DNA from: Armatimonadetes bacterium Uphvl-Ar2
Lineage (GTDB): Bacteria > Armatimonadota > Fimbriimonadia > Fimbriimonadales > Fimbriimonadaceae
NCBI GenBank assembly: GCA_002162095.1
Contig: CP021424.1
Location: 2,294,001 to 2,358,000 of the forward strand
Length of the DNA: 64,000 bases
Direction of reading: 5' to 3'
Shown: positions 7,545 through 14,900 of the stretch, piece by piece
How the letters are laid out: each line of letters begins with the position of its first letter
Position numbering within the stretch: position 1 is the stretch's first letter
Position numbers and translations under genes: made by a program
Notes under the pieces: generated by a model
What the model was told of the DNA's origin: nothing
The model's database searches: none
What the model saw: the letters and a program-made list of their open reading frames with translations, nothing else

Positions 7545-8615
7545 ATGACGCGATACGCTCCGGCCGCGCTGGCTTTGCTGGCAGGAACCCTTATCCTCTC
7601 TGGATGCCAGAACCAAAGTAGTAGCTCCGGCGCCACGGGCCTGAACAGCGAATACAAAGCCCTGAAGGAAGGCGAAACCTCGCCGACCGGCGAAGGCGGC
7701 ACTTCGGCGACCACTCCGGGTGGCACCACGTCGACCACGCCCGGAGCCGCTGCGGGTGGGGGCGTCGTCGCCAGTGGATCGCCGACCGGCACCGCCGTCG
7801 AAGCTCCGGCCGCCAAGGTCGAAGAAGGGGAGGTGGCCCTGCGCCTGGGCGTGAAGAAGGGTGAAACCTTCCGCTTCAAGCAGACCACCGATGCGACCTT
7901 GACCCTGCCCGCCATGGGCAGCGGCACCGCCAAGCCCGCCAACTACACGGTCGCCACGGGGCAAACCTACACCGTCTCGGACGTGAAGAACGACGTGTTT
8001 GACGTCGAAATCCGCACGGACAAGCCGGAAGTGGTGAAGGCCGATGAAGCCGCCCAACAGGTGGTGCAGATGCTGGGGGGTGACGCCCGCACGATGAACT
8101 TCACCTACGACGCGCTGGGCAAGCCGGGTGCGCAAACGGGCAGCGTCCTGCGCGGGGTGCCGGGCAGCAGCGATTCGATTCTGCAGAGCGGGTTCCTGGG
8201 CATCGTCTTCCCGAAGGATGGCGTGAAGGTGGGCGACAAGTGGACCAACAAGGTGGACATTGCCAAGCAGATGGGCCTGCCGCCGAACGTCGAGGTCAAG
8301 AACCCCGACATGACGGTGACCTACGTGCTCAAGAGCATTGACCGCAACGGCGACCGCGCGGTGATCAGCATCAACGCCACCGGCAACCCGAGCATCAGCA
8401 GCCAGATGATGGCGGGCGGGCGCGGTTCCGACGGCAACACGCAGACCCAAGCCCGCACGATGACGTTCAAGATGACGATGTCCATGACGGGGACGGCGAC
8501 GCTGGACCTGAGTTCCGGGGTGCTGCGCACGGCCGAGTACCGGCTGAAGATTGGCACCGACGGCGGCCCGGCCCTGGCCAACCAAGACATGACGGTCAAG
8601 ATCGAGCGGCAGTAA
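7545..8615 (+). CDS. Secreted lipoprotein (unrecognised; possibly DUF6263-like)
   Basis: The 356-aa product opens with a lipoprotein signal peptide (hydrophobic core, then the lipobox LSGC, Cys at about residue 21), so it should be acylated and membrane-anchored on the outer side of the inner membrane. A Ser/Thr/Gly/Pro-rich linker (about residues 22-85) leads to a beta-rich domain starting 'LRLGVKKGETFRFKQT', with 'GD.W' and repeated 'GTATLDLSSG' features that recall DUF6263-type domains; the function is unknown. The segment just after the lipobox, NSEYKALKEGETSP, is nearly repeated in the lipoprotein at 37800. Its last codon and stop (CAGTAA) reappear at the 5' boundary of tandem cassettes 2 and 3. 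Confidence 0.8.
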   Translation: MTRYAPAALALLAGTLILSGCQNQSSSSGATGLNSEYKALKEGETSPTGEGGTSATTPGGTTSTTPGAAAGGGVVASGSPTGTAVEAPAAKVEEGEVALRLGVKKGETFRFKQTTDATLTLPAMGSGTAKPANYTVATGQTYTVSDVKNDVFDVEIRTDKPEVVKADEAAQQVVQMLGGDARTMNFTYDALGKPGAQTGSVLRGVPGSSDSILQSGFLGIVFPKDGVKVGDKWTNKVDIAKQMGLPPNVEVKNPDMTVTYVLKSIDRNGDRAVISINATGNPSISSQMMAGGRGSDGNTQTQARTMTFKMTMSMTGTATLDLSSGVLRTAEYRLKIGTDGGPALANQDMTVKIERQ

Positions 8616-8636
8616 GCGCAGGCTTCTTAGGTTCAC

Positions 8637-8658
8637 TTATAGGTATTTAGGCCTATAA
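8637..8658. promoter_or_regulatory. Inverted repeat upstream of cassette 1
   Basis: Arms TTATAGG and CCTATAA, separated by 8 nt, sit about 37 bp upstream of the -10 box and are followed by nine G residues at 8664-8672. The element is kept in all three cassettes, which suggests an operator or activator site. Confidence 0.55.
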
Positions 8659-8694
8659 ATTGCGGGGGGGGGCGTGAGTTTGAGGATTTTGCCT

Positions 8695-8700
8695 TATATT
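8695..8700 (+). promoter_or_regulatory. -10 box of cassette 1 (leaderless)
   Basis: TATATT lies 6 nt before the ATG at 8707. It sits inside a block of about 30 bp that is identical in the three cassettes. The -35 position falls at the end of the G tract and has no consensus. Confidence 0.55.
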
Positions 8701-8706
8701 AAAGAC

Positions 8707-9228
8707 ATGCGAGTGAAATCTCTAGCATCCGCATTGGGGGCGAGTGCCCTCCTTCTTGTCCTCCCCATGTCTGCTTTTGGGCAGAATGCTTCGCCGGCGA
8801 TGACTGGCACGATCACCGGACCGAGTTCCGCTACGGTTAAGCAAACGGTCCTCTTCACCGTTACTGGAAGGGATCAAGATACCAATTTCGAAAAGGGCAT
8901 CACATGGACGGACCCGGAAACCGGAGAAGAGCATGTGCTTGTACCTCCCCGTTTTGTCGTGTTCAATAACTACGATCACAATCAGGCCACAATCACCCTT
9001 AACACCCAGGGTTTCGAACTAGGTGAGCTTGTGCTTTGGACTCACCAGCAAAACGAGGCGGACGGGCAAAAGCGGTACCAATTGTCGGTGAAAGTTGCGC
9101 CGACAGTACCTGCTCAAGGAATTGGCATCCTGGATATCACCTACCGGGACTACGTGCACGCACTGTCACCTTTCAAGGACTCGGACATCTACCTAACGTA
9201 CCAGGTGATCGTCAATCCAGAGCCATGA
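8707..9228 (+). CDS. Cassette gene A1: secreted beta-rich protein, unknown family
   Basis: I do not recognise this family. The 173-aa product starts MRVKSLASALGA and has a clear Sec signal peptide ending AFG-Q (about residue 26). The mature part of about 147 aa looks all-beta, possibly an Ig-like domain: 'TGTITGPSSATV', 'GRDQDTNFEKG', 'DPETGEE', 'FELGEL', 'HQQNEADGQKRYQLSVKV'. It has no cysteine and no catalytic motif. The ATG at 8707 was chosen over the upstream in-frame GTG because the intervening DNA contains the conserved -10 box and the signal peptide then has a normal n-region. Its TGA overlaps the ATG of gene B1 (ATGA). Confidence 0.75.
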   Translation: MRVKSLASALGASALLLVLPMSAFGQNASPAMTGTITGPSSATVKQTVLFTVTGRDQDTNFEKGITWTDPETGEEHVLVPPRFVVFNNYDHNQATITLNTQGFELGELVLWTHQQNEADGQKRYQLSVKVAPTVPAQGIGILDITYRDYVHALSPFKDSDIYLTYQVIVNPEP

Positions 9229-10235
9229 GCCTGCTGCTTGCCATTTCCTTACTTGGCTTGCAAGAAGTGAAATCCTTCCCGGGTGGCACCGGGAAGGAAG
9301 CCGCTGCATGGATGCATTCCTTGACCAATGAGCCAGTCATGGTCAACACTTACGGTGCCGTACCTCCGATTGATGTTGATCTCAGGAATGAGCGCAAGCC
9401 TGAGGAGTCAAAAAGTGCCTATATAGGCAGACTTATTGCAAAAAGTCTAGACAAAAGCAGTGTTTGCTTTGATTACTCGTACAAGCCAGATGAAGTTGGG
9501 CTAGGTATCCGAATACTACGTCCAAATCGGAAGTACCCAAGAATGACTCAAGATTTCCAGTTCTGGGAAAGTTTCGGAAGAGGGTTTCCGTCCGCTGATC
9601 GCGCACAGATTGAGATATCCGACGGACTGTTGAATCTCAAGGTTGGCAACTCTGGAAGTATCGTCGTTAACGAGGTTGGCTCATTCTTTACCAAGGAGGA
9701 TCATTGGATATTCAAGGACGGAACAGTAGCACTTGCAGGTGCTGGCATTACGAGAGAGCAGTTCCGAACGATGAGATTCATGTGCACTCCCGTCAAGTTC
9801 GATGAAGAGGGGAATGCGATGATCGACCGAAAGCGGGCAACGAAGTGGATGCTGGATGCGACCGTTTCAAGCCACGGTCAAGAGTTAGCCTCTTGGGCGA
9901 TCGAGGTCAAGCAGTCTGTATATGGGGAGTTACTGAAAAGCCTTTCAGATATAGAATTTGGCTCGATCTTCGCAGTGAGATCGATGGAGGGTCCACGGTT
10001 TCAAAGAGAGTTCGCGCCGCTCACTACTGCTCACCAAGCTGCGATTGGGTTTCACCAAAGAGCACGCTCCCAGGGTCCTTATGAAGGTGACAACACAAGA
10101 TACCTTCAGCTTGTACGTGAAGTAACGTTTTATGGGGATGCCGACTCTACGCATCCCGTGCTTGTAGTCCTTGCCGAAGATGGAAGGCTTGCGTTCGCTG
10201 TAATGACGAAAACTGGAAATCAACAAGTGTGGTAG
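9225..10235 (+). CDS. Cassette gene B1: secreted protein, unknown family
   Basis: I do not recognise this family. The 336-aa product has a short hydrophobic N-terminus (MSLLLAISLLGLQ) that probably directs export, followed directly by FPGGTGKEAAAW. Blocks shared with B2 and B3 include 'EPVMVNTYG..P', 'RKPEESKSAYIGRLI', 'DHW', 'RKRATKWMLDA', 'QGPYEGDNTRYL' and the C-terminal GNQQVW. It is translationally coupled to A1 by an ATGA overlap, which suggests fixed stoichiometry and a physical partnership between A and B (inference). No enzyme motif is evident. Confidence 0.75.
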   Translation: MSLLLAISLLGLQEVKSFPGGTGKEAAAWMHSLTNEPVMVNTYGAVPPIDVDLRNERKPEESKSAYIGRLIAKSLDKSSVCFDYSYKPDEVGLGIRILRPNRKYPRMTQDFQFWESFGRGFPSADRAQIEISDGLLNLKVGNSGSIVVNEVGSFFTKEDHWIFKDGTVALAGAGITREQFRTMRFMCTPVKFDEEGNAMIDRKRATKWMLDATVSSHGQELASWAIEVKQSVYGELLKSLSDIEFGSIFAVRSMEGPRFQREFAPLTTAHQAAIGFHQRARSQGPYEGDNTRYLQLVREVTFYGDADSTHPVLVVLAEDGRLAFAVMTKTGNQQVW

Positions 10236-10256
10236 TAACCACCAGAGAACTGGATG

Positions 10257-10291
10257 CCCCCTCACGCCACTCGGCGGAGGGGGATTTCTTT
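10257..10291 (+). terminator. Terminator of cassette 1
   Basis: CCCCCTC and GAGGGGG form a 7-bp GC stem, followed by ATTTCTTTG. The element is nearly identical in the three cassettes. Confidence 0.75.
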
Positions 10292-10340
10292 GTGAGAACC
10301 TGAGAGAACCAGGCAGTAAGCGCAGGCTTCTTAGGTTCAA

Positions 10341-10362
10341 TTATAGGTATTTAGACCTATAA
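10341..10362. promoter_or_regulatory. Inverted repeat upstream of cassette 2
   Basis: A perfect 8-bp inverted repeat (TTATAGGT and ACCTATAA, 6-nt loop) followed by ten G residues at 10368-10377. This is the best-preserved copy of the element. The compensated change in the right arm (A facing T, against G in copies 1 and 3) argues that the dyad itself is selected. Confidence 0.6.
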
Positions 10363-10397
10363 AGTGCGGGGGGGGGGCGAGTTTGAGGATTTTGCCT

Positions 10398-10403
10398 TAT
10401 ATT
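10398..10403 (+). promoter_or_regulatory. -10 box of cassette 2 (leaderless)
   Basis: TATATT lies 6 nt before the ATG at 10410. The distance from the G tract to the -10 box is 20 nt, against 22 in copies 1 and 3. Confidence 0.55.
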
Positions 10404-10409
10404 AAAGAC

Positions 10410-10958
10410 ATGCGAGTGAAATCTCTAGCATCCGCATTGGGGGCGATTGCCCTCCTCCTTGTCCTCCCCGTGTATGCTTTTGGGCAGACGCCCCCTCCTC
10501 CTCCTGCTGGCAACAATCAGCCGCCCCTTCACGGAACTATTTCTGGGCCAAGTTCCGCGAATCTTGGCACAAACATAGTCATCAACTTCATGGCCAAGGA
10601 TCAAGATACGGGCTATATTCCCGGCAGAGAAGTTTATAATCCTGCGACCGGAGAAGTGGAGACGTACCCGGAGGTGTGGTACACCATCGACAACTACGAA
10701 CATAACGCAGTTGAAATTCAGCTGGACATTGAAGGATTTGAGTTGGGTTCAACACCCAATGGTGGTTGGGAACTTCAACAAACGGAACCTGGTGGCGTTA
10801 AGCGCTATCAGTTGGCAGTCAATGTGGCCACATCGATGAGTTCAAGTGGCTTCGGGAAAGCGCGGATCATTTATCGGGACATGAAGGAGCTTCCGTTCGT
10901 GTGGTGGGATGCTTTCAGTTACACCGCGACTTTGACTATCGCGCTGAACCAACCATGA
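10410..10958 (+). CDS. Cassette gene A2: secreted beta-rich protein, unknown family
   Basis: A 182-aa paralogue of A1 and A3. The signal peptide is almost identical to that of A1 (MRVKSLASALGA, hydrophobic core, cleavage near AFG-Q), followed by a Pro-rich stretch. The mature domain keeps the family pattern 'HGTISGPSSANLGTN', 'KDQDTGYIPG', 'NPATGEVE', 'FELGS', 'LQQTEPGGVKRYQLAVNV', 'SGFGKA', but differs from A1 at most other positions. The C-terminal part is Trp-rich (VWWDAFSY), unlike the HALSP/HVLSP of A1 and A3. It overlaps B2 by ATGA. Confidence 0.75.
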   Translation: MRVKSLASALGAIALLLVLPVYAFGQTPPPPPAGNNQPPLHGTISGPSSANLGTNIVINFMAKDQDTGYIPGREVYNPATGEVETYPEVWYTIDNYEHNAVEIQLDIEGFELGSTPNGGWELQQTEPGGVKRYQLAVNVATSMSSSGFGKARIIYRDMKELPFVWWDAFSYTATLTIALNQP

Positions 10959-11974
10959 CAACAGCTGTTGCTTTGGTTTGCCTGCTCGTGCGTGAGCCAA
11001 AGATTGCCGTATTCCCGGGCGGTTCTGCCCGGGAGTTGGCGGTTTGGATTCGCTCGCATACAAACGAGCCGGCAATGGTAAACGCGTACTCTGGTGTGCC
11101 GAGAATTGAGGTCGATCTTAGCTCCGGACAGAAACCCGACGAGAGCAAAAGTGCGTTTCTTGGCCGATTGATATCAAAGTCGCTTGAGAAGCAGCGGTTC
11201 TCTTTTGAGGTCCTGTACGAAAAGGAAGCAAAGCACCTTGGTGTGCGCATCGGACGGCCCCAGAGAGGTTTTCCTCGCGATCATCAAGAACGCACGTTCT
11301 ACATGGACCTTGCGAGGGGCTACCCAAGTGCTGATCAGGCAGTCGTGTCAATTGATTCGGAGCAATTAACCTTCGCTCACGGAGATAGCGGGAGTTTTTC
11401 ACTATCGACTGTTCAAGGTTGGTTTGACAGGTCTGACCATTGGCTTGCCGGCAATGGCAACATCGCTATCTCGGGCGAACCGGTGGATAAGCAGACATTT
11501 CGCTTACTTCGGCAAATGACTGTCCCTCTGATGCTTAATGAAGAGGGGCTATTCGTCGTCAATAGAAAGCGAGCTACACAGTGGATGCTCGAAGGTGCAA
11601 ACCGCAAACAGGGGACGCAGCAGCTGGCGAGTTGGGCGGTCGAATCTAAACGTCAAATCTACGGGGCATTGCTTGATAGCCTAACGGATGATGAATTCAA
11701 GAAGATATTTGAGTCCAAGTCGCCTCAAGGGCCAACATTTGTAAAGGAGTTTGATCCTCAATCAACCGTCCATCAGGCGGCTGTTGAATACCACCGACGA
11801 GCACTCACCGAAGGTCCTTACGACGGGGATAACACTTGGTACCTAGAAATGGTTCGCGATACACCACAAATAGGTGAGGCTGACAGATCAAAGCCTGTCA
11901 AGGTCGGATTGGGCTCAGATGGTCGATTATCGTTTGTCATCAGAACGACGAACGGCAATGAGCAATCTTGGTAA
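10955..11974 (+). CDS. Cassette gene B2: secreted protein, unknown family
   Basis: A 339-aa paralogue of B1 and B3 with a short hydrophobic N-terminus (MTTAVALVCLLVREPK) before FPGGSARELAVW. Family blocks retained: 'EPAMVNAYSGVP', 'KPDESKSAFLGRLI', 'DHW', 'RKRATQWMLEG', 'EGPYDGDNTWYLEMVRDTP' and the C-terminal GNEQSW. B2 and B3 share the 'EMVRDTPQ(I/L)G.AD' block, which is altered in B1, so copies 2 and 3 may be closer to each other here. It is coupled to A2 by an ATGA overlap. Confidence 0.75.
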   Translation: MTTAVALVCLLVREPKIAVFPGGSARELAVWIRSHTNEPAMVNAYSGVPRIEVDLSSGQKPDESKSAFLGRLISKSLEKQRFSFEVLYEKEAKHLGVRIGRPQRGFPRDHQERTFYMDLARGYPSADQAVVSIDSEQLTFAHGDSGSFSLSTVQGWFDRSDHWLAGNGNIAISGEPVDKQTFRLLRQMTVPLMLNEEGLFVVNRKRATQWMLEGANRKQGTQQLASWAVESKRQIYGALLDSLTDDEFKKIFESKSPQGPTFVKEFDPQSTVHQAAVEYHRRALTEGPYDGDNTWYLEMVRDTPQIGEADRSKPVKVGLGSDGRLSFVIRTTNGNEQSW

Positions 11975-11999
11975 GTTAGGATTGGCAAAACCAAAAAAA

Positions 12000-12034
12000 C
12001 CCCCTCACGCCACTCGGCGGAGGGGGATTTCTTT
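12000..12034 (+). terminator. Terminator of cassette 2
   Basis: Same CCCCCTC/GAGGGGG stem and ATTTCTTTG tail as in cassette 1, including an identical loop. It is preceded by an A-rich run. Confidence 0.75.
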
Positions 12035-12083
12035 GTGAGAACCTGAGAGAACCAGGCAGTAAGCGCGGACTCTGTAGGTTCAC

Positions 12084-12105
12084 TTATAGGTATTTAGGCC
12101 TATAA
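12084..12105. promoter_or_regulatory. Inverted repeat upstream of cassette 3
   Basis: Arms TTATAGG and CCTATAA, separated by 8 nt, followed by eight G residues at 12111-12118. Confidence 0.55.
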
Positions 12106-12140
12106 ATGGCGGGGGGGGCGCGAGTTTGAGGATTTTGCCT

Positions 12141-12146
12141 TATATT
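12141..12146 (+). promoter_or_regulatory. -10 box of cassette 3 (leaderless)
   Basis: TATATT lies 6 nt before the ATG at 12153, in the same conserved block as in copies 1 and 2. Confidence 0.55.
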
Positions 12147-12152
12147 AAAGAC

Positions 12153-12686
12153 ATGCGAGTGAATTCCCTAAAAGCTGCATCAATCGTCTTCGCAGCAGTC
12201 GCTGTCGCGCCCTCCTTTGCGATTGCTCAAGGCGCACCGGCCCCGGGCAATCCAACCCCTGCAATGTATGGATCGATCTCAGGTCCCAGTTCGGTCACTC
12301 TTGGCGCAAACATCGTCATTGATGTTATGGGCAAGGATCAAGACCAAGCCTACATACCGGGGTATTCCTATATCGACCCAGAGACGGGGCAGCAGGTTAA
12401 CGTTCCAGAGCGATTCGAAACTTTTGACAGCCACCATCACGACGCTAGCCAAATCGTCCTGGACGAAGAGGGCTTTGGCCTTGGCACACTGGTATCTTGG
12501 TCGTTGCAGCAAAACGAACCTGGTGGGGTCCGGCGGTGGCAGGCAGCAGTGAAGGTTACGTCCGTAATGACGACTTCAGGTTTTGGAAAGATCATCGTCA
12601 CTTACGATGATACGGTACACGTATTATCGCCGTACCACGACGAGTCGATCATTCTTACCAAAACCATTGGATTGGTACAGCCGTGA
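12153..12686 (+). CDS. Cassette gene A3: secreted beta-rich protein, unknown family
   Basis: A 177-aa paralogue of A1 and A2. After the first codons the signal peptide differs (MRVNSLKAASIVFAAV, cleavage near AIA-Q), although the promoter DNA is identical. The mature domain keeps 'YGSISGPSSVTLGANIVI', 'GKDQDQAYIPG', 'DPETGQQ', 'FGLGTL', 'LQQNEPGGVRRWQAAVKV', 'SGFGKI' and 'HVLSPYHDES'. It has a His-rich patch (DSHHHD). No cysteine or enzyme motif is seen. It overlaps B3 by a GTGA junction. Confidence 0.75.
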   Translation: MRVNSLKAASIVFAAVAVAPSFAIAQGAPAPGNPTPAMYGSISGPSSVTLGANIVIDVMGKDQDQAYIPGYSYIDPETGQQVNVPERFETFDSHHHDASQIVLDEEGFGLGTLVSWSLQQNEPGGVRRWQAAVKVTSVMTTSGFGKIIVTYDDTVHVLSPYHDESIILTKTIGLVQP

Positions 12687-13705
12687 CGGTTTGCCTTGCC
12701 CTTGGACTGGCCTTTTGGCCTGTGTCTGACGGCAAGGCCTCTTTCCCTGGCGGTACGGGGAAGGAAGCCGCCGCTTGGATTTACGGGCTAACCAAAGAGC
12801 CAGTGATGGTGAATACGTTCGGCGCGGCACCTGCTTTTTCGATTGATCTTACGGAAGAACGCAAGCCAGACGAATCTCAAAGCGCGTTTGTTGGCCGACT
12901 CATCACCAGTCAATTGAAGCGCGAAGGTGTGGTGTTTGATACGGTCTACTCTCCGGAAATCTCGGCCTTTGGCATTCGGATTGGTCGTCCTCAATCACGC
13001 TATCCTCGGGTGACAAGAGACCTGAACTTTTGGCGAGATTTTGCGCTGGGTTATCCGGCAACGGACCAAAGTCAAGTGTTGATTGAGGACGGCCGTTTAC
13101 GGCTTGCATCTGGCAATTATGGAAGCGCTATTGTAGCAGGTGCTATGGGGTTCTTCTCCACCACCGATCACTGGGTGTCAAAGGACGGTACCGTGGCCAT
13201 TGCGGGTATCGACATTGCGAGGGCCGAGTTCCGTGAAATGAGGAAGATGTGCTCGCCTTTGGAATTTAATGAATCCGGTGATTTTGTGGTCAGCCGAAAG
13301 CGGGCAACTCGCTGGATGCTCGAAGGTGCCCTTCGAAAGACAAGAAGCCAGCGCCTGGCCATCTGGTTCATAGAGGGGAAGGAGGCAGTCTACAGCGAAC
13401 TTCTGAATTCACTTTCGGATCAGGAATTCAATGAGATCTTTCGTGCAAAGTCGGATTCAGGGCCAGTCATTGAAAAGGAGTTTGCTCCTCTTAGTGCGAC
13501 TCATCAAGTTGCAATGGCGACCCACAATCGAGCTCGTAAAGAGGGTCCCTACGAAGGCGACAACTCGTTCTACCTTGAGATGGTGCGCGATACACCTCAA
13601 CTCGGTGATGCTGATCCGACGAAGCCGGTAAAGGTTGTATTGGCAGTTGATGGCCAGCTCGCCTTTATCATCACCACAACGACCGGAAACCAGCAAGTTT
13701 GGTGA
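12683..13705 (+). CDS. Cassette gene B3: secreted protein, unknown family
   Basis: A 340-aa paralogue of B1 and B2. It starts at GTG 12683 within a GTGA overlap with A3. The N-terminus (MTVCLALGLAFWPVSDG) is a short, weak signal sequence before FPGGTGKEAAAW. Family blocks: 'EPVMVNTFGAAP', 'RKPDESQSAFVGRLI', 'DHW', 'RKRATRWMLEG', 'EFAPLSATHQVA', 'EGPYEGDNSFYLEMVRDTP' and the C-terminal GNQQVW. The strongest conservation is at the two ends and in the RKRAT.WML helix. No function is assigned. Confidence 0.75.
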   Translation: MTVCLALGLAFWPVSDGKASFPGGTGKEAAAWIYGLTKEPVMVNTFGAAPAFSIDLTEERKPDESQSAFVGRLITSQLKREGVVFDTVYSPEISAFGIRIGRPQSRYPRVTRDLNFWRDFALGYPATDQSQVLIEDGRLRLASGNYGSAIVAGAMGFFSTTDHWVSKDGTVAIAGIDIARAEFREMRKMCSPLEFNESGDFVVSRKRATRWMLEGALRKTRSQRLAIWFIEGKEAVYSELLNSLSDQEFNEIFRAKSDSGPVIEKEFAPLSATHQVAMATHNRARKEGPYEGDNSFYLEMVRDTPQLGDADPTKPVKVVLAVDGQLAFIITTTTGNQQVW

Positions 13706-13716
13706 GTAAAGAAAAT

Positions 13717-13751
13717 CCCCCTCACGCTACACGGCGGAGGGGGATTTCTTT
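13717..13751 (+). terminator. Terminator of cassette 3
   Basis: Same CCCCCTC/GAGGGGG stem and ATTTCTTTG tail as copies 1 and 2; only the loop differs. It lies 12 bp after the B3 stop and near the 3' end of the convergent sigma factor gene. Confidence 0.75.
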
Positions 13752-13776
13752 GTGAGAAATTAAGCGAGCGAACCGC

Positions 13777-14900
13777 TTAGTTCGGGCTGGGGGTGATGGT
13801 GAAGCCGCTGGCGCTAAGCTCTTGCCCGATGTGGCGCAGCTTCTTCATCGCGCGCAGTTCGATCTGGCGCACTCTTTCCCGCGTGACGTTGAGCGCGGCG
13901 CCCACCTCTTCCAAGGTGCGGCTGCGGCCATCGTCCATCCCAAACCGGAGGCGAACCACGTCGCGCTCTCGGCTCGTCAGGCGGCCCAGAATGCTGTCAA
14001 TCTCTTCGCGGCGGATCAGCGACCAGGTCACATCGCTCGGGGTCGGCATGTTCGTGCTCGGCACAAAGTCACCAATCGAGGAGTTGTCCTTTTCGCCCAC
14101 CGGGGTTTCCAGCGAGAGCGGTTCCACGGCCACGCGCATCATTTCTTGCACGCGGTCGGGGCTCATGCCCACGCGCTCGGCCACTTCTTCCGGCGTCGGT
14201 TCGCGGTGCAGTTCTTGCTGCAGCTGGTTGGCCGTCTTCATCACCTTGTTGATGAGTTCGGCCACGTAAACCGGGATGCGGATGGTGCGGCCCTGGTTGA
14301 TGATCGCACGGGCAATGGCACGGCGGATCCACCACGTCGCGTAGGTGGAGAAGCGGAAGCCCTTGCGCCAGTCAAACTTCTCAACCGCGCGGATCAGACC
14401 GAGGTTGCCCTCTTGGATCAGGTCGGCAAGGGGATGCCCCGGGCGTTGTACTTCTTGGCGATGGAGACAACCAGGCGGAGGTTGCTCTCTATCAGGTGCT
14501 GCTTGGCGGCGCGACCCGACTTGATGATCTCCTTGATCTCCCACTGGTCGAATTCGTAGTCCTTGGGCTTGTTCACCAGTTCGGCGACCTTAGACCACTT
14601 GCCGTTCTCGGCGAGGTCCATGGCTTGCACACGCTTGGCCAGATGCTCTTCTTGGGCGGGGGTGAGCAGGTGGGCGCGGCGGGTCTGCCGCATCCACATC
14701 TCGAGTTCTTCGGATTCGTCGTTAGTACGAGTCTCCTCCTCCTCTTCCTCATCCTCCATTTCCAGCAGGTCTTCGGCATTCGGTTCATCGTCCATCAGCA
14801 TGTGCTTGGCCGCGTCCATGTAGACGTGCCGAGCGTGCGTTCGAACGGTGATCGCCTTGCCGCGCTTCACCTGGGTGGGCATCTGATTTTCGCCAGCCAT
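13777..14900 (-). CDS. rpoD: Principal-type sigma-70 factor, frameshifted as sequenced
   Basis: RNA polymerase sigma factor. The N-terminal 160 codons (from ATG 14900) hold an acidic stretch, a region 1.2-like '[14 protein letters not shown]' and the start of region 2 ([17 protein letters not shown]). The rest is in another frame: [20 protein letters not shown], '[12 protein letters not shown]', region 3, and region 4.2 '[17 protein letters not shown]'. The frames join if one base is added at about 14427 (C after GGC on the + strand), restoring [14 protein letters not shown]. About 374 aa would result, with no large region 1.1. An intact gene is expected for a principal sigma factor, so an assembly error is more likely than a true mutation. 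Confidence 0.85.

Follow-up and report, generated by a model that had tools for sequence, protein, structure and literature searches.

Tandem two-gene units with palindrome and poly-G leaders in an Armatimonadetes genome: putative phase-variable loci for exported proteins

The tandem array and its flanking genes

The window, that is, the whole 64,000-nt stretch of DNA that was analysed (genome positions 2294001-2358000 of the single-contig, 2.63-Mb genome of Armatimonadetes bacterium Uphvl-Ar2, contig CP021424.1), carries three head-to-tail units at 8707-13705, each of which consists of a gene for a small exported protein (A) followed by a gene for a larger protein (B) and is preceded by a palindrome and a run of G residues. 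These units may be contingency loci, as argued below. Positions are window coordinates unless designated as genome positions. The start-to-start distances were 1703 and 1743 nt, in agreement with the three tandem units of about 1.7 kb described in the original prediction, which was made from the sequence alone. The array is flanked by a DUF6263 lipoprotein gene (7545-8615; Pfam expectation value (E) 1e-11) and by an opposite-strand gene for a primary-type sigma factor. The features of the units are as follows.

8636..8672, + strand: promoter/leader of unit 1, palindrome TATAGGTATTTAGGCCTATAA followed by G9 (8664-8672)
8707..9228, + strand: A1, exported, 173 residues, signal peptide, beta-rich
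9225..10235, + strand: B1, 336 residues, short hydrophobic N-terminus, ATG in the 4-bp overlap with the A1 stop codon
10256..10289, + strand: unit 1 terminator hairpin with T-rich tail (fold z -4.1)
10341..10377, + strand: promoter/leader of unit 2, palindrome followed by G10 (10368-10377)
10410..10958, + strand: A2, exported, 182 residues
10955..11974, + strand: B2, 339 residues, with an orthologue in the sister species G001
12000..12032, + strand: unit 2 terminator hairpin (fold z -4.7)
12083..12118, + strand: promoter/leader of unit 3, palindrome followed by G8 (12111-12118)
12153..12686, + strand: A3, exported, 177 residues, predicted Ig-like beta sandwich (mean predicted local distance difference test (pLDDT) 67)
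12683..13705, + strand: B3, 340 residues, GTG in the 4-bp overlap with the A3 stop codon, N0/STN-like model at residues ~15-103
13716..13748, + strand: unit 3 terminator hairpin (fold z -6.2)

The A proteins (173-182 residues) have a Sec-type signal peptide in each unit and no membrane segment after it, and the B proteins (336-340 residues) have a short, hydrophobic and uncharged N-terminus. B starts with ATG, ATG and GTG in units 1-3, respectively, and each start shares 4 bp with the TGA-ended A. The small A with its signal peptide, the B of about 340 residues with its hydrophobic N-terminus and the constant overlap had all been predicted correctly, and by these sequence features A and B both look exported, as had been proposed. 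Pairwise protein identity among the units was 42-48% for A and 46-53% for B. The G+C content at third codon positions (GC3) was low in the A-B units (50-59% vs 70-85% in the three neighbouring genes measured), and no Rfam match to a structured RNA was found in the unit. Every unit closes with a strong GC hairpin followed by TTTCTTT, so that the terminator predicted for each unit was confirmed (fold z -4.1 to -6.2). The predicted promoter of each unit did not appear as a consensus sequence: a simple sigma-70 scan found none in the upstream blocks, and the assignment of a separate promoter thus rests on the conservation of an upstream block common to the units, a TATAAA-like element and the palindrome. 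The sigma factor gene (13777-14900, - strand) is split into two frames by one base near 14428; it is intact in G001 (374 residues), and the break in this essential gene is probably due to misassembly.

G-runs, the palindrome and their recurrence before unrelated exported pairs

The palindrome TATAGGT-N6-RCCTATA occurs upstream of every A gene, in the form TATAGGTATTTAG(A/G)CCTATAA, and the G-run begins 6 nt past CCTATA. Run lengths were 9, 10 and 8 in units 1, 2 and 3 (10 in the G001 unit), that is, unequal between units with near-identical flanks, as they stand in single assemblies with probable indel errors. The three A leaders hold the only G/C runs of at least 7 nt in the window, where about 16 were expected under a first-order model. 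This genome has four matches to the pattern CCTATA-N4..9-G8 and G001 has one, confined in both to the loci described here, and a single further match was found among 59 other relatives; the reversed-pattern control was found 0 times in this genome and G001 and twice elsewhere. In total, the genome has 11 distinct G/C runs of at least 8 nt, and seven of them precede exported two-gene units of three families (three AB, two A'B' and two A''B''); the others are one C-run locus and three runs in housekeeping reading frames. The palindrome is present at the AB, A'B' and C-run loci, and the A''B'' runs are without it. The tracts lie in the promoter or at the 5' end, are long enough for slipped-strand mispairing and exceed chance expectation. 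Poly-G tracts, palindrome, low GC3 and the mosaic of ends and bodies (see below) were all absent from the original prediction, and the poly-G/palindrome promoter common to unrelated pairs is a more informative feature than the pairing.

Some other occurrences of these elements were also observed. A C8 run with the palindrome near genome position 248069 lies upstream of a gene for a 119-residue secreted protein, which is followed by pseudopilin-like genes. In two congeners (G001:C31:120486 and G002:C148:7701), type IV pilin-like genes with an N-methylation motif are preceded by palindrome-like sequences that have no G-run. A penicillin-binding-protein-like gene near genome position 2079590 consists of two overlapping frames with the break at a G8 run, which is either an assembly error or a real switch.

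The two A'B' loci of this genome (genome positions 1731218-1733407 and 1738839-1741003) have the palindrome, with G11 and G8 runs. Relatives of A' (~440 residues) were found in 12 of the 61 genomes searched, this genome included, and the gene after A' was B'-like wherever it was readable, often either overlapping A' by 4 bp or starting a few nt after it. Seven of the 12 A' loci, spread over six genomes and including relatives in other genera, begin with a G/C run of 8-13 nt, against ~0.006 expected as a rough value at the run rate of this genome. The runs of G011 and G054 lie within the coding sequence, and the signal peptide and the mature protein are in different frames on the two sides of the run; in some members (G002, G004 and G054) the runs are of C rather than G. 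An (AGT)n repeat lies directly before the A' homologue of G015 and is possibly a different simple-sequence switch. The invariant residues of A' (Cys, Asp, His and Asp) recall a transglutaminase-like triad, but a transglutaminase identity was not adopted on these residues alone, with no support from Pfam or the PDB. B' matched Cu_amine_oxidN1 (PF07833) weakly to moderately in 11 of 14 cases (best E 4.7e-7), the B' of this genome scoring under the gathering cut-off; this likeness is confined to B' and was not found in the B of the window. Two B' paralogues without A' (genome ~1748403-1750195) retain the conserved C-terminal domain of B'.

The A''B'' family, near 751 and 758 kb of the genome (region 744000-762000), has two A'' and four B'' genes (B'' of 390-406 residues), includes stand-alone B'' and adjoins another sigma factor gene. 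In both A'' loci and in the A' of G028, a perfect TTGACA is followed at 17-18 nt by a TAG-type hexamer and the spacer holds a G8 run, so that a change in run length would alter the promoter spacing. Homology among the three families was not supported by hhalign for the four pairs compared, A-A', B-B', B-B'' and B'-B'', with profiles shallow enough for distant homology to be possible. The layout of A followed by B recurs in unrelated families across genera.

Distribution, predicted folds and mosaic history of the units

Neither A nor B had a meaningful match in Pfam, NCBIfam, PADLOC or PHROGs, or any among PDB sequences, in line with the earlier statement that neither family was recognised. B was present in 2 of 291 Armatimonadota genomes, with three copies here and one in G001, and in a survey of co-occurrence each A was found next to its B (4 of 4, two genomes); no orphan B of the AB family was found in the Armatimonadota genomes searched. 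The strict pairing that had been claimed thus stood for AB and did not extend to the analogous families, which have stand-alone B' and B''. The G001 unit occupies the corresponding site, with matching flanking genes, and shares ~96% DNA identity with unit 2. A search of genome contigs gave a match only in the sister Armatimonadota metagenome-assembled genome UBA2785, and weak A and B matches in other genera (E 0.003 or worse) are probably noise. An origin from a mobile element, phage or plasmid was set aside, since no relatives of A or B were found in IMG/VR and no B in phage or plasmid records; so was an identity as anti-phage defence genes, for which there was no PADLOC match.

The A proteins contain no cysteine and no obvious catalytic residues. 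The A3 model was an all-beta sandwich (mean pLDDT 67, predicted template modelling score 0.60), the nearest structures of which were arrestin, Ig-like and pilin domains (Z 7-8.6). A thus looks beta-rich and Ig-like, as had been suggested, where the likeness to many unrelated sandwich folds may reflect only a common arrangement. The whole B3 model was poor (pLDDT 42), and a Foldseek search with it returned no usable match; residues ~15-103 (local pLDDT ~50-80) were predicted in the order beta-alpha-beta-beta-alpha-beta, which is that of the secretin and TonB-receptor N0 (STN) domain. Among the 15 best structure matches to this N-terminus, seven were of the N0/STN type (FpvA twice, InvG, DotD, LspD, FecA and XcpQ; Z 2.8-4.0). 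Three N-terminal pieces had no match in Pfam, the STN profile included; what this weak model suggests is therefore a likeness to the N0/STN fold and not membership. Compared with STN/secretin N0 proteins (PF07660-type; FpvA, FecA, InvG, XcpQ and DotD), B has a similar order of helices and strands at ~15-103 and differs in having neither a sequence-profile match nor a TonB receptor or secretin barrel after it.

The units are mosaic. Between units, the promoter, leader and signal peptide (the last in units 1 and 2) are ~83-100% identical and the terminators 82-91% identical, whereas identity in the coding bodies is mostly 40-60% and their synonymous changes have reached or passed saturation. Both inter-unit junctions are near-identical and hold the tail of the lipoprotein gene (GGCAGTAAGCGC...), and the array is therefore probably the product of local tandem duplication. 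Young ends around old bodies are what would be expected, we infer, if recombination within the conserved ends had brought in bodies from divergent alleles, with gene conversion of the ends as the alternative. Fast adaptive evolution alone is an unlikely source of the divergent bodies, since synonymous sites are also at or near saturation. The A'B' units are mosaic as well: divergence extends from the C-terminal half of A' into the N-terminal part of B', with GC3 of 43-52% in the divergent part vs 83-85% in the conserved C-terminus of B'. Unit 2 and its G001 orthologue differ by a synonymous divergence (dS) of 0.12-0.14, as do several neighbouring genes; the unit 2 allele was therefore probably inherited vertically, and recent transfer between the species was discounted because this dS is ordinary for the neighbourhood. 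The corresponding site in the third congener G002 was not informative as a candidate empty site, the gene after the lipoprotein gene being different there.

Putative phase-variable exported pairs and competing explanations

The reading that we favour, with modest confidence, is that the A-B units are contingency loci, i.e., switchable two-gene operons for exported proteins, the bodies of which are swapped. An operon would be turned on or off when the poly-G tract in its promoter/leader slips, and a shared regulator may bind the palindrome. A would be exported by Sec; B would be translated by coupling to A at the overlapping start, and its short hydrophobic N-terminus would serve for export or anchoring; the site of action of both would lie beyond the cytoplasm, most probably on the cell surface, where variety may be favoured by phage, predators or neighbours. 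Recombination in the conserved ends would exchange coding bodies between divergent alleles, and one cell would therefore hold several unlike versions behind near-identical switches. Since G-runs also mark two unrelated kinds of exported pair, the units look like switchable, fast-diversifying surface genes. A role as ligand and receptor, or in surface display, is a guess.

As comparators, homopolymer phase-variable or contingency loci were taken from Helicobacter pylori (sabA; PMC2715451), Bordetella pertussis (PMC1891110) and Neisseria meningitidis (nspA, poly-A; PMC6389960); Mycoplasma vlhA (PMC6258824) is a further known comparator. Like the homopolymer loci, the present ones have a long homopolymer, which adjoins the promoter or 5' end of genes whose products are predicted to be exported and is apparently unequal in length between copies, and in some members a tract in the -35/-10 spacer or at the coding start. 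They differ in belonging to Armatimonadota, in being two-gene modules of unnamed families, in the palindrome beside the run and in that switching is inferred here from sequence. Text searches of the open literature gave no paper joining Armatimonadetes or Fimbriimonadales with phase variation, and the words phase and homopolymer are absent from the genome paper of Fimbriimonas ginsengisoli (PMC4072686).

Several points weigh against this reading of the units as contingency loci. Switching is proposed from assembled sequence, and apparent assembly indels are present (the one-base break in the sigma factor gene and the break at G8 in the penicillin-binding-protein-like gene). Because the assembly seems to hold indel errors, run lengths are possibly off by one base; the presence and position of the runs are independent of exact length. 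In the AB units no clear -35/-10 spacer holds the run, and the scan found no consensus promoter through which its length would act. The surface location of A and B is itself putative, and B is without a classical signal peptide.

If the runs were invariant elements of a promoter or ribosome-binding site, or artefacts of assembly, the units would be ordinary secreted paralogues that had diverged since their duplication, with ends kept alike by gene conversion. In AB, a possible TTG start (TTGAGGATT) follows the G-run within a few nt and the run could act as a Shine-Dalgarno sequence, the between-species rate of unit 2 is ordinary, and there are assembly indels nearby; yet the runs of G011 and G054 lie within the coding region and break the frame, other members have C-runs, and this genome and G001 are otherwise nearly devoid of such runs, so that we regard this explanation as quite improbable. 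Polymorphic toxin-immunity loci have conserved ends, a variable region over two adjacent genes and orphan downstream genes. By this model, which we consider unlikely although it is the more credible of the competitors, A would be a small toxin that is exported to act on kin or neighbours, and B, also exported, would confer immunity; swapping would keep cognates together, and surplus B would be orphan immunity genes. The tight pairing, the joint divergence of both partners, the variable region that spans the A'/B' junction between conserved ends and the stand-alone B' and B'' copies are all as in such loci, and the invariant Cys/Asp/His/Asp of A' could be catalytic. The differences are that no toxin, immunity or delivery domain was recognised in Pfam, NCBIfam, PADLOC or PHROGs, that there is no large carrier protein and that A and B both appear exported; moreover, the AB family shows no orphan B, and its A lacks cysteine and obvious catalytic residues.

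An extracellular fibre, or a pilus-like or secretin-associated assembly, in which A would be an Ig-like subunit, B an N0-bearing partner and the copies a source of antigenic variety, accords with the pilin-like and other Ig-like matches of A3, with the resemblance of the B N-terminus to secretin N0 domains and with the similar palindromes before pilin-like genes in congeners. Its structural Z values are nevertheless within the range of common arrangements, the B model reaches only as far as residue 103, and no secretin, usher or sortase gene lies in the unit; it seems to us decidedly improbable.

Extending the contingency-locus reading beyond the window, we suggest more tentatively that the three families may represent a general, new Armatimonadota contingency module, in which a homopolymer switch, often with the palindrome, is reused before unrelated exported pairs and a variable region that runs across the gene junction lets matched A and B be exchanged as one. 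Most known cases of homopolymer phase variation come from host-adapted pathogens; in the present genome, from a phylum that has received little study, runs of at least 8 nt mostly mark exported gene clusters, largely of nameless paired families. A G/C run beside a paired exported gene is thus a simple genomic marker for finding more of them, and these orphan proteins become candidates for a surface arms race with phage, predators or rivals in Armatimonadota. If the broader suggestion is true, these bacteria would possess a repertoire of two-component systems, of the surface or effector-partner kind, that can be switched.

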